Assembly: GCA_027563935.2 (NCBI GenBank)
Contig: CM050448.1
Location: forward strand, 122,562,493-122,626,492
Origin: Costus lasius
Taxonomy: Eukaryota > Streptophyta > Magnoliopsida > Zingiberales > Costaceae
Length of the DNA: 64,000 nt
Reading direction: 5' to 3'
This document shows, piece by piece, positions 10,483-63,310 of this stretch. Made by a program: the position numbers and the translations under genes. Every line of letters starts with the position of its first letter. Position 1 is the stretch's first letter. The notes under the pieces were generated by a model. The model ran no database searches. It saw only the letters and a list, made by a program, of their open reading frames with translations, and was not told the DNA's origin.

Positions 10483-11084
10483 TAAGCTGTGTATACTTAG
10501 ACAAAAAAAGAAAGGGACGGACTAAAAAATTATTTTTTAGTCATTTACGGATGGATTTTAATAAAAGAAAAATATGATAAAAAATTAATAAATTTTCCGC
10601 TGATTAACCATCCGCCCAAATCGATTTGGGCAGATAAACAAACTTTGGCTGCGTTTGGAAGTGTTCTGCGGGCCGCGGGTCGCTCGGGGTCAAAAGGCGG
10701 AACGTGCAGCGGGCCAAGCGCGTGCAGCGCTTGCTACCTGCTTTGCCGCATTGACTTCAATTGACCTGCATTTTTCTTCGGATCACGCCCGCAGCTTTCT
10801 TCTTGCTGGCGGAAAATCCCAATCACGGGTAAACAGTACGCATGTGCCATTCACTAACCCGGAAACCACTCCCCTCGGTGACGAAGATGTGTTATCCTTA
10901 CCCTAACACAGCTGCCGCTCGAAACATTACGGCTTAGTTTGGGATTGCTGGCCGCCCGCTTTTGCGGGTGCGGCCAGCTGATTCTAGGAGAATATGGGTA
11001 GAGGTGGCCAACGAGCCGGGCACGGCCCGGCCCGTTGACCAAGTCAACGGGCCGCGGGCGGCCCGTGGCCCGGCTCGGGCCGGG

Positions 11085-11265
11085 CCAGGCACGGCACGAA
11101 CCCGTGCCAGGCACGGCACGAACCCGTGCCAGGCACGGCACGAACCCGTGCCAGGCACGGCACGAACCCGTGCCAGGCACGGCACGGACCCGGGCCAAGC
11201 ACGGCACGAACCCCGGGCCGGGCCAGGCACGGCACGAACCCCGGGCCGGGCCAGGCACGGCACGA
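11085..11265. repeat. Left subterminal GC-rich tandem repeat
   Basis: Repeats of about 22 bp built on CCAGGCACGGCACGAACCCG, at least six units with small variations. They sit directly inside the left terminal repeat of the 10999-12849 element. Subterminal arrays of this kind are the usual transposase-binding regions of hAT elements (established for the superfamily, inferred here). Confidence 0.8.
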
Positions 11266-19264: not shown

Positions 19265-19740
19265 ATGAGTGATAAACAAATAGATACAACCGAGGCTCAA
19301 GCAAGTAATACAAAGAAGAAAAAAACTATAAAACCAAGGGCTGAAGTTTGGAACCATTTTGAAAAATTTGAGAGTGATGGTGTATCAAAAGCAAAGTGTG
19401 TATATTGTGATGCAAGGGTAGAGGTATGGCGATTGAGATGTCTTCTTGCTTGGGGAATAAAGAAAGTTTTTTCCTATGACTGTTGATAATGCTTCAAGTA
19501 ATAATGTAGCCATCAATTACTTAGTTCTAGCATTGCCCGTTAAAAATATATTCACTTAAGATGCATTACTCATATAATCAATCTCATTGCGAATAATAGG
19601 TTAAAAGAAATAGATTCATCTATTCTTATGATTCAACATGCTATGTGAGTCTCTATCCAAATTAAGCAATTTTTTTATAAAATGGTAAAATTAGAAAAAT
19701 ACCGTCTAAGAGCTGATTGTGCTTTAAATGTAAGCACTAT
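19265..19740 (+). pseudogene. hAT transposase fragment with BED zinc finger
   Basis: A 73-residue frame starts at 19265. Residues 25-50 (RAEVWNHFEKFE, then KAKCVYCDAR) match the first half of a BED finger, with Trp and the Cys-x2-Cys pair. At about 19410 the sequence jumps straight to the central transposase domain (GIKKVFS, then in another frame VDNASSNNVAINYL and a block resembling HIINLIANNRLKEID). This skips the second half of the finger and several hundred residues. The frame is then broken by stops. The jump coincides with the left edge of the large inverted repeat. Confidence 0.75.
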
Positions 19741-21431
19741 ATAAAATTTCACGAATTTTATACTTGATGTTATTTAGAAATTTGAAAGAGCTTTTAAAAG
19801 ATATAAAGTGTTAGATCTCTACTACTAAGCACTCCTTTTAGTCCCATCTTTCATCATTAATTCATAACAAAAATTAGGATCTAACACTTTGTATCTTTCA
19901 AAGGCTCTTTCAAATTTTTAAGCGACATTAAGTATAAGATATGTGAAATTTCATTTAGTGCTCCCATCTAAGAACTATATGCTCTTAGACTATATTTTTT
20001 AAAAATTTTAACACATTATTTAAATTTGCTTAATTTGGATAGAGACGACTCATTGGCTAGCCAATTAAACTTTAAAAATAGATAACCTATCTCTTTCAAC
20101 CTATCATTCAAAATGAGACTGATTATACGAGCAATACACCTCATGTGAATATACTTAATGTGCAACACTATAACTCCAATTGATTATTTTATCTCTCAAA
20201 TAATTGATGACTATATTATTACTCAAAGCACTATCAACATTTATTAAAAAAAACTTTATTCCCAAGAAGACACATCTCAATGGTCATGCTCATATCTATG
20301 CCCTTACCAGCACGATCATAAACTTAGCAAAATTTTAGTTCTTATTCAATTTTCGCTCTTCATCAATATAGTGGGCTAGATAATTAGTTCTTTGCAAAGA
20401 GGCCCGTGTCTCAATTGTCAAAGAAACTCTTTGATTTGACTTTTGAAATAACTTTTTAAGCTTCAACTTGTCATCCACATAAAGTTATAAGCAATCACAT
20501 GAAATTGTCTATTACGATAGAATCTTAAATCTAGGGCATAAAAATAAATATCTAAAATCTTCACTTTGAACAAACTTAAAAGGTAGCTCATCAACAATGA
20601 TCATTTAAGCTAATACACTCCTTGTAGTTTCTTAATCAAAATTTCAAACACTACTAATATATACTTTATCAATTTTTAGTGTCTACCTTGAAATTAAGTT
20701 CATTGTTGGCTACCAATGTAGGGAAGCTTCTTATATATTTTGATATCAATGCATTCTATCCACATCACTCAAGAACCCCTGTATGAGTGATTTGTTGCCA
20801 CACCCTGACCAACAGAATCTATTAATACGCTTATATATTTTCAAAATCCAACTTACAATTATTCTGTACAACATTTATTTTATTTAATACCAACTAAGCC
20901 AAGTTCAAATTAGTTAATGATAGTCTAACATTCACAATCATCACAGAATAATATTCCTTTAGAATTCAATTCATGAACTCCAGAAGCTATCAATAATACT
21001 ATTGAACCCATACCAACTAAAAAATATCAGGCAAACACCTACTACTGTTATATCTAAAAAAAGCAATAGGGATTAGGTTTTAATAAATTTTTTTACAAAA
21101 GAAAGTCTATTAGTTTTCTAATATCACCCAAGGTTCTCAAAATTGATCTGAATTGGCTATTTTGTAGGTTCGTACCAGTCTGTCGAATGGCCAGTTGGGC
21201 AGAATGAAAGCTACGAGCAGAGCAAGCAGGAGGAGGAGAAGAAAGGATAAGAGAAGAAGGAGAAGGAGAACAAGAGAGGACGGAGAGGAAGGAGAGGAAG
21301 GAGAGGAAGAGGTGCAGCGGCAGCGGATGTAAGTGGGCGATCTCTTCCTCTTCATCTTTCTTTCTTCTTCGTCCTCCTCTTCTTCCGCTTCCTCTTATTC
21401 TTTTTTTCTTCTTCCTCTTCTTCTTCCTCTT
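19410..21431. repeat. Left arm of 2-kb inverted repeat
   Basis: This arm is the reverse complement of 22725-24731 with only scattered single-base and short length differences seen by eye. It contains hAT transposase pieces and the left part of a MITE (21130-21431). Within the arm, 19440-19845 and 19850-20290 are an older, more diverged inverted pair of the same transposase segment, so palindromes are nested. Confidence 0.85.
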
Positions 21432-21545
21432 CATCCTCTTCTTCCACTTCTTCCACCCACTGCTGCTCCGTCCGGTTCCACCAGTATGTATTGGTCTGGC
21501 CGGCCGGCGACCAATACAATCAGTCGAACCAGTTTTGAGAACCTT
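21130..21545. mobile_element. MITE with AAGGTTCTCAAAA ends
   Basis: Terminal inverted repeats are AAGGTTCTCAAAA at 21130 and its complement TTTTGAGAACCTT ending at 21545, followed inside by GTACCAGTC-type and CGAACCAG-type sequence. The interior is strongly AG- or CT-biased. The large inverted repeat ends within this element, at about 21431. In the other arm its mirror copy keeps only one terminus (near 23017). Confidence 0.65.
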
Positions 21546-22724
21546 AATATGACCACTTGGTCCCTAGGCATAAATTTAAAAATTATTATTATTATTATTT
21601 TAGATATAACATTTAACAAGTAGCGATGGGTTCAAAACCCCACTGCTCCAAAATTTTGCATTCATCACCCTACCATTCACCTATTAATTCATTTATTATC
21701 TATAACTATATATATACTGCTGTCAAGGATTGAACTCACACACCGGCACTTCGCATGCTCCACCTCATCGCATTCCTTATTTCATTGAACTGCGCACAAT
21801 ACTACTATGCACAATGAAGCAACACGGGAAGTGAATGAAATATGAAATAAATCAAACAATAGAGGCAAAAAGTTTTTGGTGTCCAAGCTAACACTTGGCA
21901 CCATACGAGATAAATAAAAGTAGGATCCCTAATTGATAAGTGAAATCCTCTGACAGTAAATCAATCACTCATACCCAAGTCTCTAGCACATCCAATCTCA
22001 AGTCCAAGATTTTTATTACCTTACAATGTCACATAACCAAGAAAATAAAATCAGTTACCAATTAATTATACCTCTAAAGCACATCTAAGAATACAAACTT
22101 GTAGTCTTAATACATCTAGCAACAAATCCACGAACTATAATATACCTATATCTATCCCTAAATTATTAAATCATCCATTCACATAAATATCATGTATTTA
22201 TTCTCAATTAATTTTTCCCTACACAATTTCATAATTACCAACCGGCTTACAGTAAGACCCGTCCACAATCAAATTACGGCAAATATACTGTTTACCCCCT
22301 ATGAATCTACCATCTATATAAGCAGTGTTATCACATAATCATACCTAAATCTAGGGTTTAGCATTTACCTGCCTAGCCACCAAAATCAACAAAAGAGGGA
22401 AGGAGGAAGGCCGCCGAAAGCCAAGCGCCGCCGCCCGCACTACTCTCGTACCGCCGGAAGAGGGAGAGAGGAGGCTGGCGTAACTTTCCTGTCACCGCCG
22501 CCGGAAGATAGACGCAAACGAGCAAGGGTAGCGGCAGCGCACGGGCAGGGGAGGTGAAGAAATGGGAAAAAAGAAATTTATTTTACAAAAAAGTCCACTA
22601 ATTTTCTAATATCACCATTTGTTTCCTGCAGAAAAACCCAAAAATTATAATTATTATTTTTTAATATACATTGTGCCTTAAAAAAAAATTTGGTCCGCAG
22701 GGTCCGCGGTTACCGCGGAAGCGG
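21546..22724. other. Spacer of the inverted repeat with GC-rich exon-like island
   Basis: About 1.2-1.3 kb of unique sequence between the arms. Most is AT-rich. The stretch 22378-22560 is GC-rich with repeated GCCGCCG motifs, like the first exon or leader of a plant gene read on the minus strand, ending by a TAGGGTTT-like motif near 22356. No protein could be assigned. Confidence 0.4.
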
Positions 22725-24731
22725 AAGAAGAAGAGGAAGAAGAAAGAAAGAATAAGAGGAAGCAGAAGAAGAGGAGGACGAAGAAGAAAGAAAGATGAAG
22801 AGGAAGAGATCGCCCACTTATATCCGCTGCCGCTGCACCTCTTCCTCTCCTTCCTCTCCGTCCTCTCCGTCCTCTCCTGTTCTCCTTCTCCTTCTTCTCT
22901 TATCCTTTCTTCTCCTCCTCCTGCTTGCTCTGCTCGTAGCTTTCATTCTGCCTAACTGGCCATTCGACAGACTGGTACGAACCTACAAAATAGCCAATTC
23001 AGATCAATTTTGAGAACCTTGGGTGATATTAGAAAACTAATAGACTTTCTTTTGTAAAAAAATTTATTAAAACCTAATCCCTATTGCTTTTTTTAGATAT
23101 AACAGTAGTAGGTGTTTGCCTGATATTTTTTAGTTGGTATGGATTCAATAGTATTATTGATAGCTTCTGGAGTTCATGAATTGAATTCTAAAGGAATATT
23201 ATTCTGTGATGATTGTGAATGTTAGACTATCATTAACTAATTTGAACTTGGCTTAGTTGGTATTGAATAAAATAAATGTTGTACAGAATAATTGTAAGTT
23301 GGATTTTGAAAATATATAAGCGTATTAATAGATTCTGTTGGTCAGGGTGTGGCAACAAATCACTCATACATGGGTTCTTGAGTGATGTGGATAGAATGCA
23401 TTGATATCAAATATATAAGAAGCTTCCCTACATTGGTAGCCAACAATGAACTTAATTTCAAGGTAGACACTAAAAATTGATAAAGTATATATTAGTAGTG
23501 TTTGAAATTTTGATTAAGAAACTACAAGGAGTGTATTAGCTTAAATGATCATTGTTGATGAGCTACCTTTTAAGTTTGTTCAAAGTGAAGATTTTAGATA
23601 TTTATTTTTATGCCCTAGATTTAAGATTCTATCGTAATAGACAATTTCATGTGATTGCTTATAACTTTATGTGGATGACAAGTTGAAGCTTAAAAAGTTA
23701 TTTCAAAAGTCAAATCAAAGAGTTTCTTTGACAATTGAGACACGGGCCTCTTTGCAAAGAACTAATTATCTAGCCCACTATATTGATGAAGAGCGGAAAT
23801 TGAATAAGAACTAAAATTTTGCTAAGTTTATGATCGTGCTAGTAAGGGCATAGATATGAGCATGACCATTGAGATGTGTCTTCTTGGGAATAAAGTTTTT
23901 TTTAATAAATGTTGATAGTGCTTTGAGTAATAATATAGTCATCAATTATTTGAGAGATAAAATAATCAATTGGAGTTATAGTGTTGCACATTAAGTATAT
24001 TCACATGAGGTGTATTGCTCGTATAATCAGTCTCATTTTGAATGATAGGTTGAAAGAGATAGGTTATCTATTTTTAAAGTTTAATTGGCTAGCCAATGAG
24101 TCGTCTCTATCCAAATTAAGCAAATTTAAATAATGTGTTAAAATTTTTAAAAAATATAGTCTAAGAGCATATAGTTCTTAGATGGGAGCACTAAATGAAA
24201 TTTCACATATCTTATACTTAATGTCGCTTAAAAATTTGAAAGAGCCTTTGAAAGATACAAAGTGTTAGATCCTAATTTTTGTTATGAATTAATGATGAAA
24301 GATGGGACTAAAAGGAGTGCTTAGTAGTAGAGATCTAACACTTTATATCTTTTAAAAGCTCTTTCAAATTTCTAAATAACATCAAGTATAAAATTCGTGA
24401 AATTTTATATAGTGCTTACATTTAAAGCACAATCAGCTCTTAGACGGTATTTTTCTAATTTTACCATTTTATAAAAAATTTGCTTAATTTGGATAGAGAC
24501 TCACATAGCATGTTGAATCATAAGAATAGATGAATCTATTTCTTTTAACCTATTATTCGCAATGAGATTGATTATATGAGTAATGCATCTCAAGTGAATA
24601 TATTTTTAACGGGCAATGCTAGAACTAAGGAATTGATGGCTCCATTATTACTTGAAGCATTATCAACAGTCATAGGAAAAAACTTTCTTTATTCCCCAAG
24701 CAAGAAGACATCTCAATCGCCATACCTCTAC
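22725..24731. repeat. Right arm of 2-kb inverted repeat
   Basis: Reverse complement of 19410-21431. The outer edge lies at CTCTACCCTT (24722-24731), matching AAGGGTAGAG on the left. Beyond it the sequences differ: BED finger on the left, more N-terminal transposase on the right. Confidence 0.85.
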
Positions 24732-25290
24732 CCTTACTAGTATGATCATGAACTAGGCAAAAATTTAGTTTTTTCTTATTTAATTTTCACTGTTCATAGG
24801 TATATATAATTCCCATGAGTTAGTTGTTAAAGAAACTCTTTAATTTTACTTTTGAAATAACTTTTTAAAATTCAATTTCTCACCCACACAGAAGTTAATA
24901 AGTACTCATATGAAATTGCCCATTGTGATGAAATCTTAAATCTAGGGCATACAAGTGAAAGCAAATGTCTAAAACCTTCACTTTTAACAAACTTAAAAAG
25001 AACTCATCAGCAATGATCATTTGAGTTTAATGCATTCCTTATAGCTTCTCGATCAAATTTTCAAATGCTATTAGTATATACTTTATTATTTTTAGCATCT
25101 ACCTTGACTTAAGTTTAGTTTGTTAGGTAACATTGTAGGGATTCTTCTTACATATTTTGATATAATTTTTTAATCTAGAAGTACCATTACTTTTAGGATA
25201 TGCTCAAATTTCTTTATCTCAATACTTCTTTTGCCATTGATTAAACCATCTATTTTCACGTATTTTGTAAAATGATCTCGGACCTTTGAT
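24731..25290 (-). pseudogene. hAT transposase N-terminal half, degraded
   Basis: Minus-strand translation in shifting frames gives a diverged BED region (HFTKYVKIDGLINGK near 25280-25230), then fragments like the PFKFV, CPRF and LKKLFQK blocks of RICESLEEPER transposases. It runs without a break into the central domain in the right arm (GRGMAIEMSSCLGNKESFF). Many stops and frameshifts make it non-coding today. This side is more collinear with a normal hAT transposase than the left side. Confidence 0.6.
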
Positions 25291-28667: not shown

Positions 28668-31600
28668 TCAGATGTGCTGCAACCGGCCATTATTGTTACA
28701 AGGAGGGGAATCATCATTGGTAGGCCTATCTGCTCGCCGAAACCAAGTTTCGAATGCTGAGATCAAGTGCGGGCAATCATCGACATTACGAGTGGAAAAG
28801 CTTAGGCACTGGTGCAGCAACTCCTGAGCATCTGACATTGGAAGAGTGGAAATTATACTCAAGAATGATTCTTCGAGTTCATGGATAACTGATCTTTGGC
28901 CTATTGGTGAGACAATATCTCTGCAAACATTCAGTACAGGAAGCCAATCTCTGACAAGCTTCATCCTTACCTGAAACAGTAATGTTCGAATAAAAACTGT
29001 GACTTCTTGCCTAGGATTTTGTATTATTTTATAAACAGGAAAGTTTTCAAACAGGAACAACTTGAATTAATTTTTGCGACACCATTTACCTACTATTATT
29101 TAAAGTCAGGTAACCTTTTATTTTAACCCATGTACTATACATGATTACATTGTAGAATGGAAGATATCATATATGTTGTTACGATCCGCCTGAGAAAACT
29201 GTGGCATTAACTTGATGAGTTTATAACAACATAGCCTAATTTAAAAATATTTAAGCCTTAGTGATAGTAATCTCATTAGACCTTATATTATGACAATTAT
29301 TTTCTTACTCTCTCTGGGACTAAACTAAAGTACAACAATCCCATTTATGCCCAGATATACTCAAAGCCTAACACAGCCTAAAACTATTTGACCTTATAAA
29401 CCATGACAATTTTTTTCCCATTATGGGATTAGACCGGGTTATAATAATATGCTATGTTATATATTTGCTAAATATTCAGTTATCTACTTGGCCCAACACA
29501 ACCCTCTAATGTGAATCAATTTTGTTGTCTGGGTCTAGGTGCTCAAATTTGGCTCAATTTATTTAACCTGTACAGATTTGAGATGAGCTAAAGCTCATTA
29601 TGCCTTTGCCAACCTAGCCGTATCACCTTCATAGAAAAGGGAGACCAGGATATCCCCGGGCATCCTACCTCATGCCAAAGTAAGCGCAAAGACTGCTAGA
29701 TAAATTATAAAATAAGTAAATTGATACTTTAAATGATAGTTAGGTAGTCTGAAGTCTAAACTAGTAATACCCCGCAAAGGGGTATTCTTACTTATGGTTA
29801 AGTCGCCCTTGAGTTAGGGAATGGAAAACCAATTAGGTTTTACATGACTTAGTCAATAATATGTCATCTCAAAACAAGAAATGAATTTTCCAATATCCGC
29901 ACAAGTCTGGCTGATTATATAAAAAGTGAAAGGTAAGAGAACAAGGTCCCAGATGCTGTTTGCATATTCTAGAACAGGTATTTGTTCGACAAATACATAG
30001 AATGAAAGCATGATTTTATTTTAACAGAGCTACCCAACACATATAATGTATACTCCCAATTTCATATGCAAGAGTGAAGTATAAGCCCCTTCTAGTTATA
30101 CAGTACCAAACATTAGGACACCACTAAAAACAATGACTTGGTCACAAAAGTAAAGTGACCTTATCATAGGGTTTTTGCAAAAAAGAAAAAAAAAACCCTT
30201 TTTGTTTATGAATTGTTTCATCATTAACAAAAAAAATTGTAATTTTTACTACATCTTCGGCAAGGACATCCCTAACTTCCAAGAAATTTACTCCCTGCAT
30301 GAATTATACAACTTATAATCTTGTATGAAAACATTGATGGGCAATGTTATGCACAAGAGGAGGCTCCATCCAAACACTCCATCAAACATGGGCCTCCTGC
30401 TTTAGGACCAATCATAGGCATCATTTGCATGCATGCTTTGACTTTCTGTATTGCATCTGCATGACATTTTTTGTATGTAGCTAGGTAACCTAGGTTTATT
30501 TTATAATTTTAATTTCTATAGAATTACATATTAGGTTGTAAAGTAGCCTAGGTTACATTATAATTCACACTGCATATGTAATTTGACAAGCCTCCTCCAC
30601 ATCCTAACGACCTCAACATATATACCTCAACCACCACATCATCAAGTGCAATGTCATCAATTACCACATCAACAAAAACCAGCCACATCACCATGCCATT
30701 TCATGACAGGACATAAACAACTAAGAGAAGGAAGAAAAGAGGAGTGGATGACAACCCAAATTCCACTCATGCAAGCATTTCATGAAGCTGACCACCCAAC
30801 CTCCCAAGCTAACCAATGCATGGAGCTTGCTTAAAGCATGTAAATGGCTAAGGAAGGGCGCCAACTTGAATTTCAAACCAAAAAGATCTAAGCCACTTCA
30901 AACCAAGAAGATCTAAGCCACACAATTCAAAAAGAACCATCATCCAACCAATGAAGAAGAAAGAGAGTTGATGACAATTACAAACTTGAGGGCAAAGTGC
31001 TAAAGTGTTGTAAACATTAAGGGTGAGAAGGATTTAAGGGCTTGTAGTTGTCATTTGCTTCATAGTTTAGCATATTGAATGATTTAGAAAATACTTGTGT
31101 TCTTAGTGTTAGTAATTGTAGCCTGAGTGACTCTCTTCTTGCTTAGCCAATCCTTCCACCATCTTCTTCCCCCTTGTGCGATTCCTTGCCTCAAGCCATG
31201 GATGTCCTTCCTTCCTTCCTTGGATGCAGCTTGAAGATAAGGAGACCTCAAAGTGGAGCTTGGGGCATGGAGAGTCCATGCCATCAATCTTGAAGACTTG
31301 AACAAGATCCACAAAGGACCTTTGTTAGTTTAAAGGGAGCTTTTCTCCCATCCCTTGTTCTTTCATATTATTGTATAACGTCCCATTTTTAATCTCATTG
31401 CCAAGATTCAGGGCAAATCAAGACGAAGGACCTTGGCCCCTTCAACATTGAAGGGGTGGCAATGAGACCCCTCCAACTCTCTCTTATTTGCATGTTATTT
31501 GTTCTTAGTTTATTTTCTAGATTTGCATGCTCTGTTTGCTATTTAGTTTGCTGTTCTTACAAGCTCCATACCCTAGAGCGACCCTTATACAATCATATAA

Positions 31601-33002
31601 CCCCCTCCTACTTCACAATGCTGTCAAATTCATTGTTCATCCCGGTAAATCTTCATATTCATAATTCCATTATCTCAAAGATATGGCTGACTGCAAAAGG
31701 AACCATTAGTCTCGGAAGCTTACTTTTTCATCTGCTTCCATCAAACTGCTGTTTTATCTTAACTTTTGTTTTTCCCTTGTTGAGTCCTGCACATATTAGT
31801 TCATACTAGTCTAATTTCAAAATGCTAGTCGTGGTCACATTTGGCCATTACTAGTTAATGCGTCTTCACAAAAGGAGAAAAGGCTAAATGCATGAAAATT
31901 TCATAGTCAAAACCTGTCGCGGAGCCAGAGTAGTTCCAGAAGCAACAGCATTTGCGAGCCGGAATGTGGACTTTATGACCAGCGACGGTAGCCCAGGAGC
32001 TATGTTTTTCCAAGCATCGTCCCTGAAAGTCTTCTGCAAGTCTGCAGCTAATGCCGCCTGCTCACTCCATTCCTCCACTGCCGCATCGGCCACTCTCAGC
32101 TCAATCATCCTCTCCACAAGCCAGTGCAGGTGCTTGGCATTCATCATGGCTGAATGCAGATTCAGCCTCTGCATTGCCTCTCTCTCATCATTGTTTCCCG
32201 CAACGCTGAAGTCGGGACTTGCATACTTCCCCAAATGGTCCTTCACCGTCTCCATACTCGTGTAAAAGGCTTGCTCCAGAGCTCTCTTCACGGAATCCCG
32301 AGAAGAGTAATCCCTTAGTAACTTCGCAACGAAGACCTTCACGGTCGCTACATTTGGGTGACTGCGAATGGCTGAATCAATCAATCGCTGGAGCATTGCT
32401 TCCGACGCAGAAATCCCGTCCCCATCCTCCGGTGCTCCAGGAGAAACCCTCGCGAGGAGTTCTTCAGACTCCTCTTTTTTAAGGAAAGGGATCACTTTTA
32501 GAACCCCCTTCTCCTCCTCCTCCGTCCAGGGCACGGCCTCGATGTACCGCACACATGCGAGGATACAATCCTCGAAGAGAAGCTCCGAGGCCACCGGGAT
32601 CATCTCCACAGCATCGGAGACAGATCTGATCTCTCCAGAGAAATCGAGGGTGTGGAGGAGGCGGAGGACCTGCACATGGGCGTCAAAGGGGCCGGGATTT
32701 GCGCGGATGCGGACTCTTGTACAGGGGGGTTCGACCTTATGGGTGAGATGCCGACAAAGTCCGAGGCTGCCCTCGACGAAGGGCAGCCACCGCTCGGAGA
32801 GGAGAGCGGCGAAGTAACCGCAACGGCTGAGAGCGGTGGAGTAGACGCTAAGGCTGAGCGATTTGGGGCAGGGGTCGAGGTCCTGAAGCTCGAGGCGGAG
32901 AAGAATGTCGCCGGATCGGTCGAAGGGGTACTCCTTTAGGGTTCCGTCAGGGTTGAGAGGGCCGACGGCGCCCCCGCCACGCTGCCGTTTCCGGTGTGAC
33001 AT
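28668..33002 (-). CDS. BTB/POZ domain protein (At1g63850-like)
   Basis: Two exons on the minus strand, 33002-31914 and 28970-28668, joined in phase 0 (CGACAG|gttttg to ttcag|GTAAGG), giving 463 residues. The first 25 residues are basic (HRKRQR). A BTB-like fold follows from about residue 30, including VYSTALSRCGYFAALLSERW. The C-terminal region is helical and ends with LPMSDAQELLHQCLSFSTRN and a WFRRA motif, as in plant proteins of the At1g63850 type. Such proteins are thought to bind CUL3 and bring substrates to ubiquitin ligases (family knowledge; substrate unknown). The start is the ATG before SHRKRQR; the longer frame opens with TTG. The intron of 2943 bp is long and carries repeat-like DNA. 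Exon 1 is GC-rich. Confidence 0.88.
30340..31460. other. Repeat-like insertion in BTB intron
   Basis: The composition changes here from AT-rich intron to a mixed sequence with short direct repeats (AAACCAAGAAGATCTAAGCC-like at 30880-30920) and an 18-bp palindrome CCCCTTCA/TGAAGGGG near 31440. GGCAATG occurs at both edges (30338 and 31455), which could be a target duplication, but the ends do not fit TG...CA. I suspect a retroelement fragment and cannot classify it. Confidence 0.3.
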
Positions 33003-33844
33003 GTAGAACTGTAGATTATCATTCAACCGACGTGATTCTTGAGGAAGAGACGGAAATATGACGTTTCACGGAAGTTCATTTTGTGTTGTAACACGAATCG
33101 TAAAGAGAATAGCTGCCACATGATTATGCAGGTGCACGAATCTTAACGCTTTCGCGGTGCAATAAATCGCCATCTCTAATTTTCTCATTGCTTCTCCCGC
33201 CTCGAGGATCCTGACCGTCGGATTGGGACACCCGTTTACAGATGAGCAGTGTATGAGGGTATGGTGATTGCGGTATCTGAAAAGGAGGTGAGCAGAGGCG
33301 GTGCCGCTGGTCGGATAAGATAAGATTGGGTCCACCGAATTATGAAATGTGGTCAGATCTGGGTGTGTCGGATTTGAAATGTTTGTGGGAATCATTATTT
33401 TATTATATTAAGAAAATGAAGAGGATAAGGTTAATTAATTAAGACTTCATTAGCGATTATGCTAAGTTTTGACCCATATTGACAAAATAAGCCAGCCCTA
33501 GAGCTCGACTCTTGTTAAGCCCGACTAACAACTTGAATAACTGTGCTCACAAGTGAAGGAAAGTAGGCATTAAACGCTATGTATTTATGACGTGCCGGTA
33601 CAAGGAATGTCACCGAATTTATACTGTCACGGACCACACGAGGGCACGCATCGCAAGCGCTATACCGTCCTCGGCTCCTTGCCTTCTCTTTGGCAGTATT
33701 TAAATCAACAAACCCAAAAAAAAAAAAAAAAAAAAAAATCAACAAACCAGTGTTTTGTGTACGATGACGTTGACACGCCGATTTGAGGTTGTTAACGTCG
33801 CGGCACAATATATCGGGTCGGAGGATTCTGCGCCGTAGCAATCA
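33003..33844. other. Upstream region of BTB gene
   Basis: Probable promoter and leader of the minus-strand BTB gene in the first few hundred bases. A poly(A) tract of about 23 bases at 33715-33738 is bracketed by the direct repeat AATCAACAAACC, which looks like slippage or a short retroposed end. No gene is supported. Confidence 0.4.
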
Positions 33845-34034
33845 TGTATTCACGATACTTCGGAGTTCGGACGTGTTCGGGTTCATCCTCTCTCGTCTTT
33901 GCAATTGCAGGAGATGAAAATTTTCAACCCAAACCCGATAAGGCTATCGGACTCGTTCACCTACATCCATTTCATGTCATGCGTTGTAGATCAATCACGT
34001 GGGTCAATCAATTACCTAGGGTGTGTCGTTCTTC

Positions 34035-34557
34035 CAGGATAGGGATCCTGATGCCAACACTAGGGTGTGTTGATGCCAATGTCTAAGGGCATTGATGCCG
34101 ATGTCAGGGACGTCGATGCCGATGTCAGGGGACATCGAGGGAGAACTCTATAAGAGCTCAGTGATTGCCAGATCACTTCCCGGAGCAGGGGCTCCGATGC
34201 CATCACTAGGAGGGTGATGAAGAGGGGTCAGCAGATCCTTTTTCCAAAGCAGGGGGCTTTGATGCCAACACCAGGGCGTGTTGATGCCAACACCAGGGCG
34301 TGTTGATGCCAATGCATAGCATTGATGCCAACACCAGGGGGTGTTGATGCCGACGCTAGGGGCGTCGATGCCGGTGTCAGGGACATCGAGGTTCAGCTGA
34401 GTTCAGCAAATATGGTGAAGCAAGATTATCCTTGACAAGTTTGTTGATGCAGGTTGCTATAAGCATGGTGCAGCAAACATTCATCATCAGAGGAGGGAGG
34501 ACTTTGAACATTGGAAGGCCAGTGTTCAACTTGCATGGAACATCGAGGGCGATGTTC
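34035..34557 (+). repeat. Array of short stem-loops with covarying stems
   Basis: At least fifteen small inverted repeats follow one another. Perfect examples: CAGGAT/ATCCTG at 34035-34050, CGGAGC/GCTCCG at 34181-34196, AACACC/GGTGTT at 34330-34345, GACGC/GCGTC at 34352-34366 and GAACATCG/CGATGTTC at 34538-34557. Loops are AGGG or a close variant, and most units are followed by GATGCC. Stem sequences differ between units but remain complementary, some through G-T pairs (34100-34114, 34373-34387, 34506-34527). The array lies just before a polypurine tract and LTR start. Confidence 0.85.
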
Positions 34558-34576
34558 AAATCAGGTGGGGGAGAAT

Positions 34577-36126
34577 TGTTAGGGCCCGGTTCAGGCGGTC
34601 TGGCCCAAGCCCAAACACAAGTCCAGGCCCAAGCACAGGCGACCCAAACAACGCGTGTCCAGCGTGCGAACGCGTTCGCCGAATGCTTCGGACGAGATGT
34701 TTGACGGAGCAGCGTTTTCAGCCACAGAGCTCGGGCGTGAGCTCTCCACCGGAAGCGGACGACGGCTTCGGCGACTTCGGAGGCGTGGACGACGTAGTCC
34801 ACGAGTGCAACGGAGACGCGAACTCGTCTCCAGCGCACAGATCGGACGCGGTTGGAGACGTCGAGCGGTTCCAGCGACACGGACGGAATCCTCACGCGAA
34901 GGACGCTGGCTCGACGAGAAAGGCGGACGCGGCTGGCGGCCGCTGAGGACGGAGTCTTCGGCGGAAGACTCGGACGGGACGCATGACGCGGAGCTCGCGG
35001 AGGCGAGATCTGCGGGAGACCTGTTCTACGCGACCAGATGGAGCAGAGGCGGCGAAGCTTCTCTATAAGAAGCTTGACGACGACGAGATCGGGGTGCGCG
35101 GAGGCGTCACCACACAGAGCGCCGGGGAGCGACTCCACTGGCGACGGCGAGGCGCCGTCGCCCTTCCAGAGCAGGGCTCTGATGCCGGTTCCAGGAGGGA
35201 ACTGATGCCGACGCCGGCGGGCGTCGATGGCGACGTTCAGGGCAACGTCGGTGACGAGGAGAGATTGAGAGAGTTGTAACCGGCGTCTAGAGAGACGACC
35301 GGTGAGAGGAGCAAGTGGGAGAGGGGCGGGCGACGGAGGCCGTCGGCCCGGAGAGCTTGTAACTTGTTCGAAGGAATAAAGAAAGCTTCCCCATCATTCC
35401 CCCGTTCTTGAGTATTTCCGGCGACAGCCCTCAGCAGCAGGCGGCTGTCGGGTCGGCGACAGACGGACGAACGCGGCGGCGAGCGTTCGTTCGCGTCGAA
35501 GAAGACGAACAGTAACGTTCGAATCGAGGTGCGAGTCAACGAAACGAGCAGTCAACGCTCGAATCGAACAAAATCGAATTGGATTTCGATTTCAGGCTGA
35601 CGTCAGCGGGGCGACGCTGACATAAGACGGTGATTACGCGCGGCGGCGAAATAAAATCGAGGGCTGACGTCACGCTGATGCCATCAAGGTGATGATTTTG
35701 ACTTTGGTCAAAATCAGAAGAGGTATTTGATTTAGGGTTCCGTTCTTTTCCGGATTTCTAAATTGGGGTTAGGGTTTTCTCCGTGCGATCTTGTATTTGG
35801 GGATAAAAATTCTTCGGGGAGATTAGGGTTTCCAATTTAAGGCCGGAAATCCTAGGGCGAGTTGCGTTCCGGTATTCCGCCGGACGGCTCTGAGACAACA
35901 GATAAGCGCTGTTCTCAGGCCGATCCGATCGGGGCGTGACACCTGAGAAGCCCGAAAGTAAAACAGAACCGACATCATCCACGGATGCTCTTTTTTCTTC
36001 CAAAACAGTTACACATTTTTACCAAAACCGCAAATTCTACCGAGCAGCGGGACTTCCCTTGCGGATTGAGCCACCCAGTGAGAGGGCGGGTACCAACTAG
36101 TTCGTGGCGGGCAAGCGTTCCATAAC
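34577..36126 (+). mobile_element. Probable 3' LTR of a copia-type retrotransposon
   Basis: A polypurine tract (AGGTGGGGGAGAA, 34563-34575) is followed by TGTTAGGGCCC, the classic junction of internal region and 3' LTR. A poly(A) signal AATAAAG lies at 35376. The right end is placed at CCATAACA (36126), because TGTTA and TAACA are complementary; no target duplication can be checked, since the left end of the element is not recognisable. The LTR is GC-rich, which creates long meaningless open frames on both strands. More stem-loops of the upstream type occur at 35167-35256. No gag or pol was found; only the 3' tail of the element remains, from perhaps 33845. Confidence 0.5.
35167..35256 (+). 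repeat. Second cluster of covarying stem-loops inside the LTR
   Basis: Consecutive inverted repeats: CAGAGC/GCTCTG (35167-35181), GTTCC/GGAAC (about 35189-35203), GACGCC/GGCGTC (35210-35225) and CGACGTT/AACGTCG (35231-35250). The first two are followed by GATGCC, as in the array at 34035-34557. Confidence 0.75.
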
Positions 36127-36672
36127 ATCTCTTTCTATCTCTTTCTGTGATAATAATAAGATTATCGAGCAATCCCCTCTTCCCCTACCCCCAAATACAC
36201 CTGCGTTGGTCGTTTTTGTGGGTCCCATGCGGTGACTTTAAGCAACTGTGGCTCAGCCTCACCACCTTAGCGGGTGATTATTATACTCGATACACATGTT
36301 AAAGTTAGTTCGGTAAGAAAAAGGGTAAAGGAATATGTGAACTGAAGTTTTTTTTTTCTTTCGAGTTAGTTGGATTAGTGAACAGTAAGTAGAACGACTC
36401 ACTCGCCACGCTTCAGCCGGGTCCGGCCAAAGGCATTAATTAAGGAAGGAAAACGGAGTGCATCGCTCACCCGTCGCTGTCCCTGCGACATTACACTACA
36501 TCCCATCACAGCAATTACTAGTACTCTCCCCTTTAAATTATCTCACGTCCTCCACCCTCCCTCCTCTCCCCTCTACGCTACGCTCCAAACCTAACGGTTA
36601 CTTCTCATCACGGACGAGGAGAAGAACGAGAACGATTAGGAGAGGAGCAGGTGATACCGCGCACCGCCGGAG
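36127..36672 (+). promoter_or_regulatory. Probable promoter and leader of the receptor-like kinase
   Basis: Sequence between the LTR edge and the kinase start. It becomes CT-rich from 36530 with TCCTCC repeats, as is usual for plant 5' leaders. No clear TATA box could be fixed. Confidence 0.35.
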
Positions 36673-39600
36673 ATGGGCTCGGGAACCCACTCCTCCGGCG
36701 GATTCCTCTTCTCTGGGACGCCGGTGCTCGGCCTCCCCTTCTACGCCCTCCTCCTCGCCAGCTCCGCCGCCGCGCTTCTCTTCGCCCTCCTCCTCTTTTA
36801 CCTCCTCAGACGCCGGTGGAGGGTCAAGCGACCCCGCGCCCCTCCGGTCATCCCCATCTGCACCAAAGAGATTGCCGAGATCGCCCTGAATGACAAGCCC
36901 GCGAGCATGCTGGAAGTGAAGAAGGCGGCTCAGCCGGCGCCGCCGGTGATGAATGCCGCGAATCCGTCGGAGGGGAAATCTTCGTCGTCCTCCTCCTCCT
37001 CCTCGTCGGTGGAGAAGGAGAGGAAGATGGAGAACATCGGGTGGGGACGGTGGTACACGCTCGCGGAGCTGGAGGCGGCTACCTCAGCATTCAGCGACAA
37101 GAATGTGATCGGGGAGGGCGGATATGGTATCGTCTACCGTGGCGTCTTGCCGGATCTCTCTGTGGTCGCCGTCAAATATCTACTGAATAACAAGTGAGAA
37201 CCACAAACTAGTACCCCACTCACTTCCCGTCCCTCTCAATCTTCTGCTTATAGGATTATTCTTCCTAATGGTATATGGTTTTGGGTGCTGAATTATAGCA
37301 TGAATGATGCCGAAAGATGTTAGTTTTGATCTGATTTCGCTCTAAATTATTTGTCTTGTTGACCTTTTCAAGTACCATTCTTTTAGATCTGTGATTGTAT
37401 TGTTATTTGGAAATTAGTTTTATTTGAAGTTTGTTGAACTTTCTCTGTCATCAAGCAATTAGGTAGAGTAGTTTTTGTTTTCCAGCTGAACCTCAACTGC
37501 TATTTTGATATTTGCTCATCTGTTCATTGCTATCTCTAATTATTGAATTAAAATCTTCAATTGATTCGGTCCACTTTGAAAGTCATTCATTTCTCATCTA
37601 GAAATATGGCTTATTTTATTGATGTCGGCATTGGATACTACTTAATTCTGTTACCGATCTGACCATCATTCGGCCACTAGTTTATGCTTTGGAGTGCTGT
37701 GATCACATTTCACTGTCAATGTATTAGGAAATGTATAATGTGCTTATATGAACATCTTGTTAAATCTTTTCGTTGCAGTCTTCACAACGTAAGTTTGTCA
37801 ACATTGAGATCTATCTTTAGCAATCCTAGAAGCGCTGTTGGTCCTTGGGTGGGTCTTTTTCACTTTTACTTTCCCAATCTCCTCTTTTTTTTTTACCCTA
37901 GTTGGTTGTTTTATTAGATTTTGCTGGGTTTATGGTACTTTTTGAAACTTTATTATGTCACTATTATGTTACTGAGATGTTCCGCCAAACCCAGTCTAGC
38001 TAAAAAAAATGTTGCATATGTTGAACACCTGCAAAACCCAGTCTAAAGTGATTCTTGACAAAAAGAAGAAAATAAAGTAAAAGTCACCCATTTCAGCTTT
38101 GTCTTTTTAGTCTTTAGACTTCTCTTGTGGCCTTATGCATCTTGTTTAACAGATATATTATTCTATCTACAATGTTTCATGTTTATGTAACCTTATGACC
38201 AATTATTTTGTTATGCTACTTTCACTTATTTAAGTAATGAAATTTTGCACGACAGGGGTCAAGCAGAGAAGGAATTCAAGGTGGAAGTCGAAGCTATTGG
38301 AAAAGTAAGGCATAAGAACCTTGTTGGACTTATTGGGTATTGTGCTGAAGGTGCTAAAAGGTGACCAAAACGATCCTGCCCTGGATACTTCATTTTTTTT
38401 AGCAAATTAAACCATTTACCTTGCTGGTTGTTTATCTATGCTTCTGAATTTCCAACCCTTCACTTGTTGGTTATTTAGCTAAACTGCAGAATTCCCTTTG
38501 CTGTCAGATTGCTTGTCTATGAATATATTGATAATGGCACTGTGGAGCAATGGTTACATGGTTCTGTCGGGCCCGTTAGTCCACTAACATGGAATGTCAG
38601 AATGAAGATAGCTATTGGAACAGCAAAAGGGTTAGTCTTTCTATTTCTTTTCATTTAGCTCTTGAAAGTCAGGTTAAAACTGACAATTTAATTACCTTTT
38701 CTTACCACTTTTTGTTGATTTTGCACTGCCTATTTTTTGCGACATTGTGATTACAATTAGTAGGTAAAGTTGGTGTTGCTTAACCAAGTTCAAATCAGAA
38801 ATTGATTGAGACTCAGCGATTCCTTTATCAACTTCAATTTTGAATAGTTGTAATCGTGGTGCTACATTAACAGACGCACACATACTCTCCAATCTGACTT
38901 ATCTTCTTGCATTTTCTTTCAAAATGGAGAAATTGTTGCTTTTCTTAATTTGATTATTGCTTTGCAGTATAGCATACTTGCATGAAGGGCTGGAACCTAA
39001 AGTTATTCATCGAGATATAAAGTCCAGTAACATTCTACTAGACAAGCAATGGAATCCTAAAGTTTCTGACTTTGGATTGGCCAAGGTTCTAGGCTCTGGT
39101 TCAAGCTATGTAACGACCCGTGTTATGGGAACATTTGGGTTAGTATATTATTTCGCACTTCTATGATCTTGTTTCTGTTAATTATAGTTTGCAATATGCT
39201 ATTTCTATATGAAAGTAAACATGTTTGCTTTATAAATATCATCTCTATTTGAATATCTCAACCTCCTAGCATATTTTTTCCTAAGAGTAGAAATTTATCC
39301 TTCCATGTTTCATCACTTCTATATATGAATTCTTTTGCAGCTATGTGGCTCCCGAATATGCATGCACAGGTATGCTTAATGAGAGCAGCGATGTGTACAG
39401 CTTCGGAGTTCTACTAATGGAGATAATCTCTGGAAGAAGTCCGGTAGATTATAGCAAGCCACCTGGAGAGGTGAGTTTAAATGGAATTTCTTCAAATAGT
39501 TTACTTTTCATACCCATTTACAATCGGCTGATCCTTTTACAGGTAAACATGGTAGAATGGTTTAAGCGAACTATACAGAGCAAGCGTGATGCGGAAGTGC

Positions 39601-50132: not shown

Positions 50133-52148
50133 GTGAAATTAACAATAAAAGTGGTTTTATATTGGATTGGAAGGTCAGTACACCAAGGATGTTTCAAGAA
50201 AGAAGTGTAATTTCCCTCACCAATCTTAATATAAAAACCCGATCTTAAAGTGTTGAGATCCCTAAGAAACCCACGCCAGCACCAACTTGAACTCTTTGGC
50301 CACTTTATGTTCCAAGGGTCAGGAGTACCATACTTGGCATTTACAACCCGAGCCCAAATGGTATTTTTATGGTTCAAAACATCTAAGGTTCGTCTAGCTT
50401 GAAGAGCAACACGAACAAGAGTTAAATCTTTGACCCCTAACCCCCCACTTTTCTTAGGTAAGGTCACAGTCTCCCAATTGATAAGATGCAAACCTTTAGT
50501 ATTAGGATTATTTTGCCAAATGAATTGTCTAGAAATGCTATTGAGCTTTTCAGTGTAAGAATCTGGGAGCCAAGTAGAGACCAAGGTATGAATAGAAGTG
50601 GCAGCAATAGTAGAATTAACCAAAGACACCCTACCAGCTTGAGATATAAACTTACTTTTCTAAGAGCACAAATGAGCCATAGCAGTAGTTTGACAAGCTT
50701 GAAAAGCCAAACGAGCAGGTGCCTTAGGAGAAATAATAGCCCCAAGATACTTAAAAGGGAAGCATCCTTCACCTACATTAAATTCCTTAAGGATGATATG
50801 CTTCAAACGGGAAGGACAAGACTTGGGGAAATAAATTTTGGATTTAGCATGATTGAGCTTAAGGCCAGCAATGTCATAGAAAATCTTAAGAGCCTTCTTA
50901 ATGTTTTTGCATGATTTAGGAGTAGCTCTAAAGCAGAGGGTTAAGTCATCAGCATAAATAAGATGAGAAATCTTAACCGAGCCTTTTATGGTAAAAGGGG
51001 TAATATGCCCAACTCTAACTTCATCATTCAAGATGATACTTAAAAGATTCATCACAAGGACTAAAAGATATGGAGATAAAGGATCGCCTTGTCTAACTCC
51101 TCTAAAGCTGGAAAAGTAATGGGAGGGGTTGCCATTGATGGTACAGGAGAATTGTGGGGATTCAATGCAAGCCATAATCCACTGGATGAATATAGGAAGG
51201 AAGTTATAAATTAGAAGAGCATTATAGATAGCTTCCCACTTAACACTATCAAAGGCTTTTTCAAGATCAATTTTAAAAAGGATCAAAGGAAATTTGCCTT
51301 TAGAAGAATACATAGTATGGGTAAGCTCCTGCACAGTTGAAATATTGTCATGTATGCTGCGACCCTTAATAAAAGCAGATTGTTCTATGTTAATGATAGA
51401 AGGCATAATATTCCTAAGCCTATTAGCCAGGATTTTTGCAAGGATACGATAGGAAACATTGCAAAGAGAAATAGGCCTATAATCCTTAATACAACTAGGG
51501 GAGCTGTTTTTAGGAATGAAGATGAGCTGAGTCATACCCCAATTTGGAGGAAGGGTACATTGCTGCTGGAAGTTGAGAAGGAATTGAGTGAAATCAGGTT
51601 CAATATTGGACCAAAAAAATTTGTAAAATTCATTGGTGAATCCATATGGTCCTAGACTTTTGCCATTAGGAAGATTTTTGATAACATAATGGAGCTCAGT
51701 AGGATGAAAAGGGAGAGAAAGATTCTTACCGTCATCTCTCATTGAATGCTGAAGTTGCATTACCTCAAAGCCTCTAGTGGCAGAATGAGGAGGGAGACTC
51801 CAAAGACAAGAATAGAAGTAGGCAAAAGCTTGGGCTATAATGCTAGAATCAGAAATAGTATCCCCATTATCAAGAGTAATATTGTGAATATAATTCACCC
51901 TAGCTCTATGGGCAACAAGGCGATGGAAAAACTTAGAATTACAATCCCCATATTTGAGCCATTTAAATTTGGCTTTGGTCCACCACTTGAGACTGATTTG
52001 TCTAGAGAGGGCCTTAGATCTATTGACACAAGAGCGGAGAAGGTTCTCCTCACTAAGGGAAAGAGGACGACTTGCTTCTAAAACTTGAAGAGAAGAAATT
52101 TGACTCAAGGTTTCGTCAAGAATTTTCTCTAAACTTCCAAGCCGATTA
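50133..52148 (-). pseudogene. LINE reverse transcriptase, inverted 5' segment
   Basis: The minus strand carries an L1-type reverse transcriptase. Recognisable parts are WWTKAKFKWLKYGDCNSKFF before the domain, RPISLCNVSYRILAKILANRL, RGVRQGDPLSPYLLVLVM and the catalytic LIYADDLTLCF. One in-frame TAG (50659-50661), where the family normally has Trp, separates the RT core from the downstream AGRVSLVNS region. Apart from that the frame is open over nearly 2 kb, which suggests a young copy. The coding sequence stops at the twin-priming junction near the left target repeat; residues read beyond it into the flank (50063-50132) are not LINE. Confidence 0.85.
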
Positions 52149-52160
52149 GAACTTCCAAGC

Positions 52161-52352
52161 CACTTTTATTGTTAATTTCACTGATGACTTTCAAGTGTGT
52201 TCTTTGATGCAGGATGGAGCTTGGGATCAAGAGCAAATACTTAACATTGCTGGGATAGAACTAGCTTGCAGTATCCTGAATACTCCTATTTTATCGGATT
52301 CTAGTGATGACTTTTGGTTGTGGGGAGAGGATGCTCATGGATGTTCACTAAC
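52161..52352 (+). pseudogene. LINE ORF2 linker segment, split by LTR insertion
   Basis: The plus-strand reading TFIVNFTDDFQVCSLMQDG followed by WDQEQILNIAGIELACSI and DDFWLWGEDAHGCSLTK is the region that normally follows the RT in plant LINE ORF2 proteins. It ends at the 5-bp repeat CAAAT bordering the solo LTR and resumes at 56393. Confidence 0.75.
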
Positions 52353-55502: not shown

Positions 55503-56040
55503 TGAAATATTGTTTGGAGGCGCGTACGTCGACGTTTGACGTCGGGGCGTAACTCCCCAATATGGTGTCGTGTTCATTAAGGCCAGATAAATTTCAAATT
55601 AAATTATCCAACATGCTACAAGGCCGGATAAGTTTCCAAATCGAATTATCCAACACGTCGCAAGACCAAATAAATTCCCAAATCAAATTATCCAATACGC
55701 CATAAGGCTGGATACAATTTCCAATTAAACTATCCATCACGCCGTAAGGCCGGATAAACCCTCAATTCTAATTATCCAACACGCCACAAGGCCGGATAAT
55801 TCCCGAATCCAAGTTACCCAACACGCCGCAAGGCCGGGTAACCCTCAAGTTCAAATCATCCGCCACGTCATCGAGGCCGGATACGATTCCAAATTCAAAT
55901 CATCCAACACGCCGTCAAGGCCGGGTGATCTTTTAAATCCAATATCCAACACGTCTAAATGCAATTGCGATGGAATATTGTTTGGGAGGTGCGTACGTCG
56001 ATGTTCATCATCGGGGCGTAGTTCCTCAATATAACATTTA
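55503..56040. repeat. 42-bp tandem array with hairpin borders, solo LTR
   Basis: About nine units of roughly 42 bp with AAGGCCGGATAA and ATTATCCAACACG repeat between 55575 and 55955, more diverged than in the right LTR. Each side is closed by a block with a small stem: CGACG-tttga-CGTCG at 55530-55544 and CGATG-ttcat-CATCG at 55999-56013. Confidence 0.8.
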
Positions 56041-56392
56041 ATTGCCTAGACCGGATATCACTTAATGAGATGCTCCAAAGCCAAACGCCCAACGGACACG
56101 AAATATCCAAATTGATGAAAGTTTGCTTTCTTATCGTTTAAATATTATGTCAAATCTTGTATTTTCAATACGTTTATAAATGATATTGTTCAACTTATTT
56201 AATTTATGTTTGTTGCGTGTTGTAGATCTCTTAATCAAAGGTTCCCTAATTTTAGGGGTAATTAACAATGAGCGCTTGCGCTCATTGGAAGCCAGAACCC
56301 ATTGTAATAAAAAAAACAACCTTATTAATTTAAGGTGGATTTGAAACGGTCATAATACATTTTCAATGTAATAATTTTGGCCCCACACAAAT

Positions 56393-57414
56393 CAGTTTAT
56401 TTTTGGTTATTGAATAACCATTTAGACCTCAAGGACCCTTGGGTTGGTTGGCGGAGACTTTGGATGTTGTATGTTGCCCCGAAGATAAAGCTCTTCGGTT
56501 GGAAGCTACTACATCGGCGTCTCCCTACCTCCTCTTTGTTTGCTTCTTTTGGATCTGGAAGGGCTACTCATTGTGTTTTTTGCAATAGCTTTCAGGACTC
56601 GATCTCTCACATATTTTTTTGCTGCGATTTTACTTTGCAAATTTGGGATGAAATTGCTAATATTCTAATGATTTCTCTTACTCCTAACTTAAACTGGATT
56701 GATGGTTTATGGCTTTTTGAACCCAATCTTAAGTCTGAATTAATTCTTCTTGTTTTTTGGCACATCTGGAAAGCCCGTAACTCATTGATATTTTCTAAAG
56801 CCAAACCGAATTTGTCTAAAATTTTAAAGCTTGCCCTTCTAGATTTCAATGAAGCTCAAATTGCTTATAATGCTGAGGGATATGATGTTATAAATGGAAA
56901 TTCATTTGACAGGGCAAAGTGGACTCCTCCCCCACCAGGATGGTTTAAGATAAACATAGATGGCTCTCAGAAGGGGAGGTCAAATGAGGGAGGTATTGGA
57001 TACCTCATTCGAGATCACACTGGCAAATGTTCTTTTGCTGTTTCTGCTTATGCTCAAGCAAGAGACTCTTTGGTAATGGAATTGTTAGCGATTAAGTCTG
57101 CGGTTAGCTTTGCTTATTCCAAGCAATATCAGAAGGGGAACAAGATAATATTCAAGACAGATTGCAAGAATGCTATTGCGGTGCTGGGAAATGACTGTAT
57201 CCAAGAAGGTATCCAACAACTAGTTCGGGAAATTAAGTTTATGTTGTCAAATTGGAATGTTAAATCCATTTGTTTTGTAAAACGTGAGGCTAACAAAATG
57301 GCTGACTGGTTAGCTAACTTTGCAGTTTATTCTAAATGTTGTAATTCTTGGGATGATGTTTGGCCTCAGGAACTAAAATGTATTTTGGCCTTTGATGGCG
57401 GCAATTATATATAA
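56393..57414 (+). pseudogene. LINE ORF2 C-terminus: zf-RVT and RNase H
   Basis: An open frame of about 340 residues begins directly after the target repeat of the LTR. It shows the reverse-transcriptase zinc-binding region (WRRLWMLYVAPKIKLFGWKL, then CVFCNSFQDSISHIFFCC) and an RNase H-like domain (WFKINIDGSQKG, then MELLAIKSAVSFA, FKTDCKNAI and REANKMADWLA) with the acidic catalytic residues. The stop at 57412 is followed by a short 3' end and the poly(A) tail. It has no ATG of its own: the apparent first residues come from the LTR end. Intact in frame, but cut off from the RT by inversion and insertion. Confidence 0.85.
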
Positions 57415-63185: not shown

Positions 63186-63310
63186 CACGATGCCACCGGT
63201 GCCTAGTGCACCTCAGGCCTACGTATATAAAAGCAAGAAAGTGTGTGTGTGCGGTGATGCCCTTTAGCACCTTGTGATGCCACCGGTGCTTAGTGCACCT
63301 CAGGCCTATT
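63186..63310. repeat. Duplicated GATGCC + GGTGC/GCACC module, right LTR
   Basis: GATGCCACCGGTGC, then TAGTGCACCTCAGGCCTA, occurs twice. Its stem GGTGC/GCACC is at 63198-63212 (loop ctagt) and 63285-63299 (loop ttagt), and a (GT)n stretch lies between the copies. It mirrors 53175-53305. Confidence 0.75.

Follow-up and report, generated by a model that had tools for sequence, protein, structure and literature searches.

Covarying, AUGC-spaced stem-loops before a putative LTR of Costus lasius: a possible protein-binding RNA array

Introduction

It is known that the 3' untranslated regions (3'UTRs) of alfalfa mosaic virus and of ilarviruses are arranged as arrays of stem-loops with AUGC spacers and bind coat protein (PMC9414508, PMC11166343, PMC5382211), whereas a preliminary description of the locus presented here knew of no described element with such a plan. 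In ilarvirus 3' ends, multiple AUGC motifs lying between the stem-loops are described as jointly binding the coat protein (PMC11166343); mutations of the AUGC motifs lead to the loss of coat protein binding, and the coat protein promotes pairing between linkers (PMC5382211). As an example, passages on prune dwarf virus report four AUGC linkers per RNA (PMC8541084), and those on alfalfa mosaic virus number five AUGC motifs (PMC9414508). The RNAs of alfamo- and ilarviruses are described as lacking polyadenylation (PMC11166343, PMC5382211).

Plant LTR elements of the Tat lineage harbor tandem repeats in their 3' untranslated region, and the unit number and sequence of the Tat/Ogre/Retand repeats are reported to vary between elements (PMC7004042, PMC11963269). 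The word "hairpin" is absent from the main texts of both papers, "palindrom-" from the main text of PMC7004042 and "secondary structure" from that of PMC11963269. Hepatitis B virus is described as carrying dispersed packaging-signal stem-loops with RGAG loops, which bind the assembling protein (PMC7612645).

The locus analyzed in this work is embedded in a window of 64,000 nucleotides of Costus lasius (positions 122,562,493 to 122,626,492 of contig CM050448.1, assembly GCA_027563935.2). It shares with the alfamo- and ilarvirus 3'UTRs a linear array of AUGC-spaced stem-loops at the 3' end of the sense RNA, with 11 AUGC linkers compared with the four per RNA of prune dwarf virus and the five motifs of alfalfa mosaic virus. 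Unlike the viral arrays, its loops are mostly AGGG, it is chromosomal, and it precedes a putative LTR with a poly(A) signal; a polypurine-tract-like run and a TG start follow it, and no virus domain was found in the 11 frames scanned out of 26 nearby. It lies just before the putative 3' LTR, as the Tat/Ogre/Retand repeats do, but its stems covary and the putative LTR also carries the array. With the hepatitis B virus signals it has in common several stem-loops sharing a purine-rich loop motif; however, these are not dispersed over a genome but arranged head-to-tail with a fixed linker, and their protein binding is putative.

To our knowledge, little is understood of the marks by which the RNA of plant LTR elements is selected for packaging. 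Covarying stem-loops arranged in a row, with loop and linker constant, represent a testable candidate for a packaging signal.

Results

Organization of the array

Fourteen hairpin units of one plan, 11 of them distinct, are located between positions 34035 and 34388 (Table 1). Each unit is about 19-23 bases long and is composed of an outer C-G pair, a variable 5-bp stem, a loop, and, in most cases, an AUGC linker. AGGG is contained in the loop of 11 of the 14 internal units, and AUGC lies directly 3' of 11 of the 14; in the unit at 34310-34324 the loop is AUA. The constant AGGG loop of the preliminary description is found in most units. In its GATGCC linker, the first G closes one stem and the last C opens the next, so that the linker proper is AUGC. 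The stretch 34035-34388 contains 12 copies of ATGC where 1.29 would be expected, all but one of them serving as linkers.

A scan of 34030-34576 that allowed a single mismatch gave 18 rows, and the total rises to about 20 hairpins once 34278-34293 is counted as two neighbours and the helix at 34219-34244 (11 positions, three of them G.U) is added, in agreement with the more than fifteen stem-loops, with the right coordinates, that had been claimed for 34035-34557. As for the hairpins devoid of a linker, the one at 34143-34159 pairs GAACTCT with AGAGCTC around a TATA-like core, with one A.C, and the other has the arms AGTGAT and ATCACT. The two longer hairpins have the arms TTGAACATTGG/CCAGTGTTCAA, with one G.U, and GAACATCG/CGATGTTC, with the loop AGGG.

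Table 1. Features of the array and of the putative LTR (positions of the window).
Feature	Positions	Strand	Description and basis
Hairpin block A	34035..34137	+	five units, 5' arms CAGGAT, CAACAC, CAATG, CGATGTC, CGATGTC; AUGC after units 1-4
Two hairpins without AUGC linker	34143..34177	+	hairpin scan
Hairpin block B	34181..34244	+	CGGAGC and CATCAC units, then helix 34219-34244
Hairpin block C	34245..34388	+	seven units, each of units 1-6 followed by AUGC; two units identical
Weak hairpin	34402-34419		hairpin scan
Two longer hairpins	34504..34557	+	hairpin scan
Polypurine-tract-like run GGTGGGGGAGAA	34564..34575	+	by eye; function presumed
Putative 3' LTR, TGTTAGGG...GTGACA	34577..35941	+	signals by eye; right end tentative
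TATA-like box	35064-35068		by eye
LTR copy of the array	35157..35273	+	units from 35167, 35186/35187, 35209, 35231
AATAAA	35375-35380		by eye

Perfect hairpins directly followed by ATGC number 12 on the + strand of the whole 64-kb window, 11 of them in the element, and three on the - strand, none of which is inside the element. Pairs of GATGCC spaced 12-20 bases apart are ten in the whole window; nine are in the element, each enclosing one unit, whereas no hairpin could be seen by eye inside the remaining pair, at 63256. Over the whole window, the commonest neighbours of hairpins are not ATGC but tetramers made only of A and T (as an example, TATA, with 58 hairpins in 445 occurrences). A lone perfect 7-bp hairpin with the loop ATGGG, followed by ATGC, is located outside the element at 30330-30348 and is probably due to chance.

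Excess over chance and predicted fold

Non-overlapping perfect hairpins with loops of 3-10 bases were counted and compared with 200 dinucleotide shuffles. The stretch 34035-34557 contains 13 hairpins with stems of at least 5 bp (3.30 in shuffles, maximum 9) and 12 with stems of at least 6 bp (0.93 in shuffles, maximum 4), so that matched stems exceed those of shuffled sequences of equal composition; one of the latter 12, at 34278-34293, bridges two adjacent units. In the upstream stretch 33000-34000, two stems of at least 6 bp were counted against 1.82 in shuffles. When folded against dinucleotide shuffles, as had been proposed for this locus, 34000-34576 reached -228.1 kcal/mol (z -5.36), and none of 100 shuffles was as low; the z values on the two strands were -1.64 and -1.24 for the upstream flank, and 0.65 and 0.38 for the downstream one. 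Chance or composition as the source of the array is ruled out by the hairpin counts, by the folding energy, and by the covariation compared with shuffles.

In the lowest-energy local fold, each of units 1-3 forms a hairpin of its own, with four unpaired bases between one and the next, and several others also stand alone; the units of 34035-34094 are kept single in the lowest-energy fold as well. Units 4 and 5 of block A, however, are paired to one another, and in block C neighbours merge into longer helices over much of 34262-34390. The row of covarying single hairpins is thus not fully what the energy model prefers.

Covariation of the stems

In the 11 distinct internal units, 63 of the 66 cells (six stem positions per unit) are Watson-Crick pairs and the other three are G.U; when the 3' arms were redealt among these units, the mean was 37.8 Watson-Crick pairs and the maximum 56 in 5000 trials. 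The analysis of 14 distinct units (11 internal and three from the LTR) bore out the earlier claim that the stems covary: all 84 cells are standard pairs (80 Watson-Crick and four G.U, with no A.C) compared with 74.6% in shuffles, and none of 500 shuffles matched this figure. Since the units were picked for forming hairpins, this paired share is partly built in, and the weight is carried by the both-sided changes, which were found in 28 cells against 8.6, a number that no shuffle out of 500 reached; the same is true of the covariation score (0.940 against 0.351). The units, all from one locus, are related copies, so that the shuffles overstate the significance of these figures. Further pair types were 13 against 10.2 (reached in 6 of 500 shuffles), and the stem positions with a both-sided change, five of six against 3.8, are not telling alone (130 of 500 shuffles). 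When the partner was slid out of register, 19-58% of the cells were paired. The differences by wobble only that had been noted before were also recovered, the exceptions within the 14 internal units all being G.U.

Since a MAFFT alignment of the raw units shifted the left arms against one another, the counts were performed on arms of equal length. Reading the LTR unit at 35186/35187 one base further out leaves the totals unchanged. By contrast, a 22-bp palindromic tandem array located at 11080-11265 of the same window shows unmatched changes in four of its eight copies (three in one arm and one in both). The palindromic core of this repeat is CCGTGCC a GGCACGG.

The putative LTR element and its copy of the array

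Read by eye, the run GGTGGGGGAGAA, the start TGTTAGGG, the TATA-like box, the AATAAA, and the possible GTGACA end would fit an LTR element terminating here on its 3' side. The array adjoins the 5' side of the polypurine-tract-like run and of the TG start, recognized by eye, in agreement with the preliminary description, which placed it directly before a polypurine tract and an LTR. No second LTR was detected among the self-matches of the window of at least 60 bases, and Pfam revealed no pol, Gag, or virus domain in the 11 frames scanned out of 26 open frames of at least 60 aa near the array. The element is called putative because these searches gave neither a second LTR nor pol; a truncated copy would lack both. 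On ten nearby frames, the only Pfam hits were LapA_dom (E 0.24) and DUF3682 (E 0.87), both below the cut-offs. The element is flanked by the long open frames 31884-33065 (-) and 36655-37197 (+), which look gene-like and neither of which has a Pfam match.

A second block of the array lies in the putative LTR, and its alignment with the internal one (34025-34143 versus 35157-35273) has 66.7% identity over 123 columns (E 6e-9). By eye, the loops and the linkers are mostly kept and the differences fall mostly in the stems, with the exception of the last third. Since this copy is located between the TATA-like box and the AATAAA, it would be expected in the R region of the RNA. Fourteen comparisons between homologous hairpins of different blocks were carried out, with homology assigned by order, some units reused, and units 5, 10, 11, and 12 left out; of the 84 stem positions compared, 51 are the same, 26 differ on both sides, seven differ on one side through G.U, and none is broken, while nine of the 56 linker positions differ.

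The row of hairpins that had been described up to 34557 is present, but it does not end there, since hairpins continue into the putative LTR (34577-35942), which contains 12 perfect stems of at least 7 bp against 0.84 in shuffles, with unlike loops. One example is the perfect 8-bp hairpin AAGCTTCT ctata AGAAGCTT at 35055-35075, whose loop holds the TATA-like box. When mismatches were tolerated, the hairpins of the element showed six G.T, one A.C, and seven other mismatches, six of the latter in the LTR. The internal hairpin at 34143-34159 resembles the TATA-loop hairpin of the LTR, except for its one A.C.

A repeat that codes for protein was also considered and was rejected on the basis of the unit lengths of about 19-23 bases, which break the frame. 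For an antisense frame that crosses the array, seven candidates included no homologue at E 1. For the long antisense frame that crosses the LTR, there was no homologue at E 0.01 among the 8000 candidates sharing most words, and no Pfam domain.

Strand tests

If the pairing is kept in the sense RNA, G.T mismatches are expected to outnumber A.C mismatches. A scan scoring the two alike gave 18 G.T and eight A.C in the element (p 0.038), compared with 194 and 200 in the rest of the window; this excess varies with the cut-off (p 0.026, 0.072, and 0.21 at other cut-offs), and two rows joining neighbouring units supply four of the eight A.C and four of the 18 G.T. The folding z of 34030-34576 is -5.20 on the sense and -5.31 on the antisense strand, those of two parts of the LTR are -3.37/-4.97 and -3.89/-5.73 (sense/antisense), and unrestricted folding of 34000-34576 gave -5.36 for the sense against -4.37 for the antisense strand. 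Taken together, these tests give weak support at best to a constraint on the sense RNA.

Search for relatives

The scan of 34000-34600 with 4227 Rfam families at E <=10 disclosed a single match, RF00252 (Alfamo_CPB), on the + strand, with AUGC aligned on AUGC, at 14.9 bits (E 0.16), far below the gathering cut-off of 70 bits. No match was found when 3001 bases were scanned at E <=1 or when the scan was performed on 34110-34600, and the LTR block gave no Alfamo_CPB but only four weak, unrelated matches. The array at 11 kb, used as a control, gave 30 weak matches to other families, the best at E 0.018. Given the low score and the chance matches of the control, the likeness is best described as one of plan, not as membership or demonstrated homology.

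Among the matches listed in a literature search, whose reach excluded subscription papers, no retroelement with an AUGC hairpin array was mentioned in titles or in the opening of abstracts. One pattern scan of virus contigs gave no relatives; another one, and a scan of bacterial and archaeal genomes, gave at least 120 and at least 119 stretches, respectively, which seemed to be unrelated repeats or matches due to chance. When the element was compared by BLAST with non-plant loci, the matches listed were all 17-28 bases long. The collections scanned and searched by BLAST were non-plant and hence uninformative on the family of the element.

Discussion

The explanation tentatively preferred here, to which slightly less than even credence is given, is that the 3' end of the putative LTR element harbors a protein-binding array of structured RNA, which selection on folding maintains. 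The stem-loops, with mostly G-rich loops and AUGC spacers, would sit ahead of the polypurine tract, with a second set in the LTR 5' of the poly(A) signal; their pairing would be kept by selection on the sense RNA, and the loops and AUGC linkers might be the contact points of a repeated binding site. The ligand could be the Gag nucleocapsid of the element, with a role in packaging or in a switch between translation and packaging, and the array would then act like the coat-protein-binding 3'UTR of alfamo- and ilarviruses. Stems that change beside a largely constant linker and loop are what would be predicted if a paired scaffold carried a binding site. The likeness to the viral plan suggests that AUGC-spaced hairpins may arise repeatedly as a protein-binding scaffold. 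It is a very improbable extension of the same idea that a plant retroelement evolved or captured an alfamo-/ilarvirus AUGC array and that its RNA is handled like virus RNA, its own Gag binding through AUGC and loops instead of through a classical packaging signal. In this scenario, alfamo- or ilarviruses that infect the plant would perhaps contribute their coat protein as a further ligand, which could carry the RNA of the element between cells or plants.

In favour of a binding array are the 28 both-sided cells against 8.6 and, between blocks, the 26 both-sided changes among 33 differing stem positions with none broken; the concentration of hairpins followed by ATGC on the + strand of the element; the exceptions, which are G.U and never A.C; the match to Alfamo_CPB on the same strand; and the unmatched changes of the repeat at 11080-11265. 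Against it stand the folding z without preference for the sense strand, the dependence of the G.T excess on the cut-off, the merging of block C, and the hairpins with unlike loops across the LTR, which one loop-binding protein does not explain. The LTR hairpins also carry mismatches beyond G.T and A.C, Gag and pol were not found in the 11 frames scanned out of 26 nearby, the Rfam match is weak, and all the units come from one locus.

The main rival, judged rather unlikely, is that a template switch, in reverse transcription or in the replication of DNA, copied one arm of a quasi-palindrome onto the other, keeping the arms matched without any selection on the RNA; selection on folding and a templated mechanism were already named in the preliminary description, and these are the right pair of alternatives. 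The creation and repair of stems by template switching is published for RNA genes (PMC8794818), and a retroelement might be prone to it. This process would fit the perfect hairpins with unlike loops throughout the LTR, the folding excess alike on both strands, and those positions that hold both A-U and U-A, which G.U does not bridge; taken alone, however, it leaves unexplained the AUGC linkers and AGGG loops kept beside diverging stems, as well as four exceptions that are all G.U with no A.C. The pair types cut both ways, since template switching is proposed to favour G-C and U-A pairs, 5' base first (PMC8794818): at positions 2-6, G-C exceeds C-G (21 against 12), which is one half of the proposed bias, but A-U exceeds U-A (21 against 12), which is its reverse. 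Should selection be excluded, the array would instead document, with unusual clarity, how template switching proceeds in nature arm by arm. A reading at the DNA level, in which dimeric host transcription factors, or other proteins that bind DNA, recognize the palindromes of U3 and of the 3' end as an enhancer array, is improbable: the palindromes surround the TATA-like box (35055-35075) and run through U3, and the folding excess is strand-symmetric, but a protein reading DNA should keep the stem sequence, whereas here the stems vary and it is the loop and the linker that are largely kept.

The array might derive from an alfamo-/ilarvirus 3'UTR, acquired through recombination with the element or by integration; plant chromosomes are reported to contain RNA virus sequences, although matches to plus-strand viruses are described as far fewer than those to other RNA viruses (PMC3136472). 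Despite the same plan on the same strand and the weak Alfamo_CPB match, such a capture appears scarcely probable: an Rfam score of this size could arise by chance, no virus domain was found by Pfam in the 11 frames scanned out of 26 open frames of at least 60 aa near the array, and the divergence of the LTR block from the internal one makes the array look old within the element. The least probable explanation, and a disfavoured one, is that of a plain tandem repeat like those reported from the 3' untranslated region of plant LTR elements, palindromic by chance and unconstrained. Its position is that described for Tat-lineage elements (PMC7004042, PMC11963269), but decay should have produced unmatched changes, and none of the 84 cells is broken.

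Other features of the window

An inverted repeat of about 2 kb, with arms 99% identical, is formed by 19414-21432 and 22718-24735. Two related 42-bp tandem arrays (55579-55924 and 60386-60806) are located about 4.5 kb apart in inverted orientation. The frame 50660-52165 contains a reverse transcriptase domain (RVT_1) and the frame 56356-57414 contains RVT_3 and zf-RVT; both look like parts of non-LTR elements.
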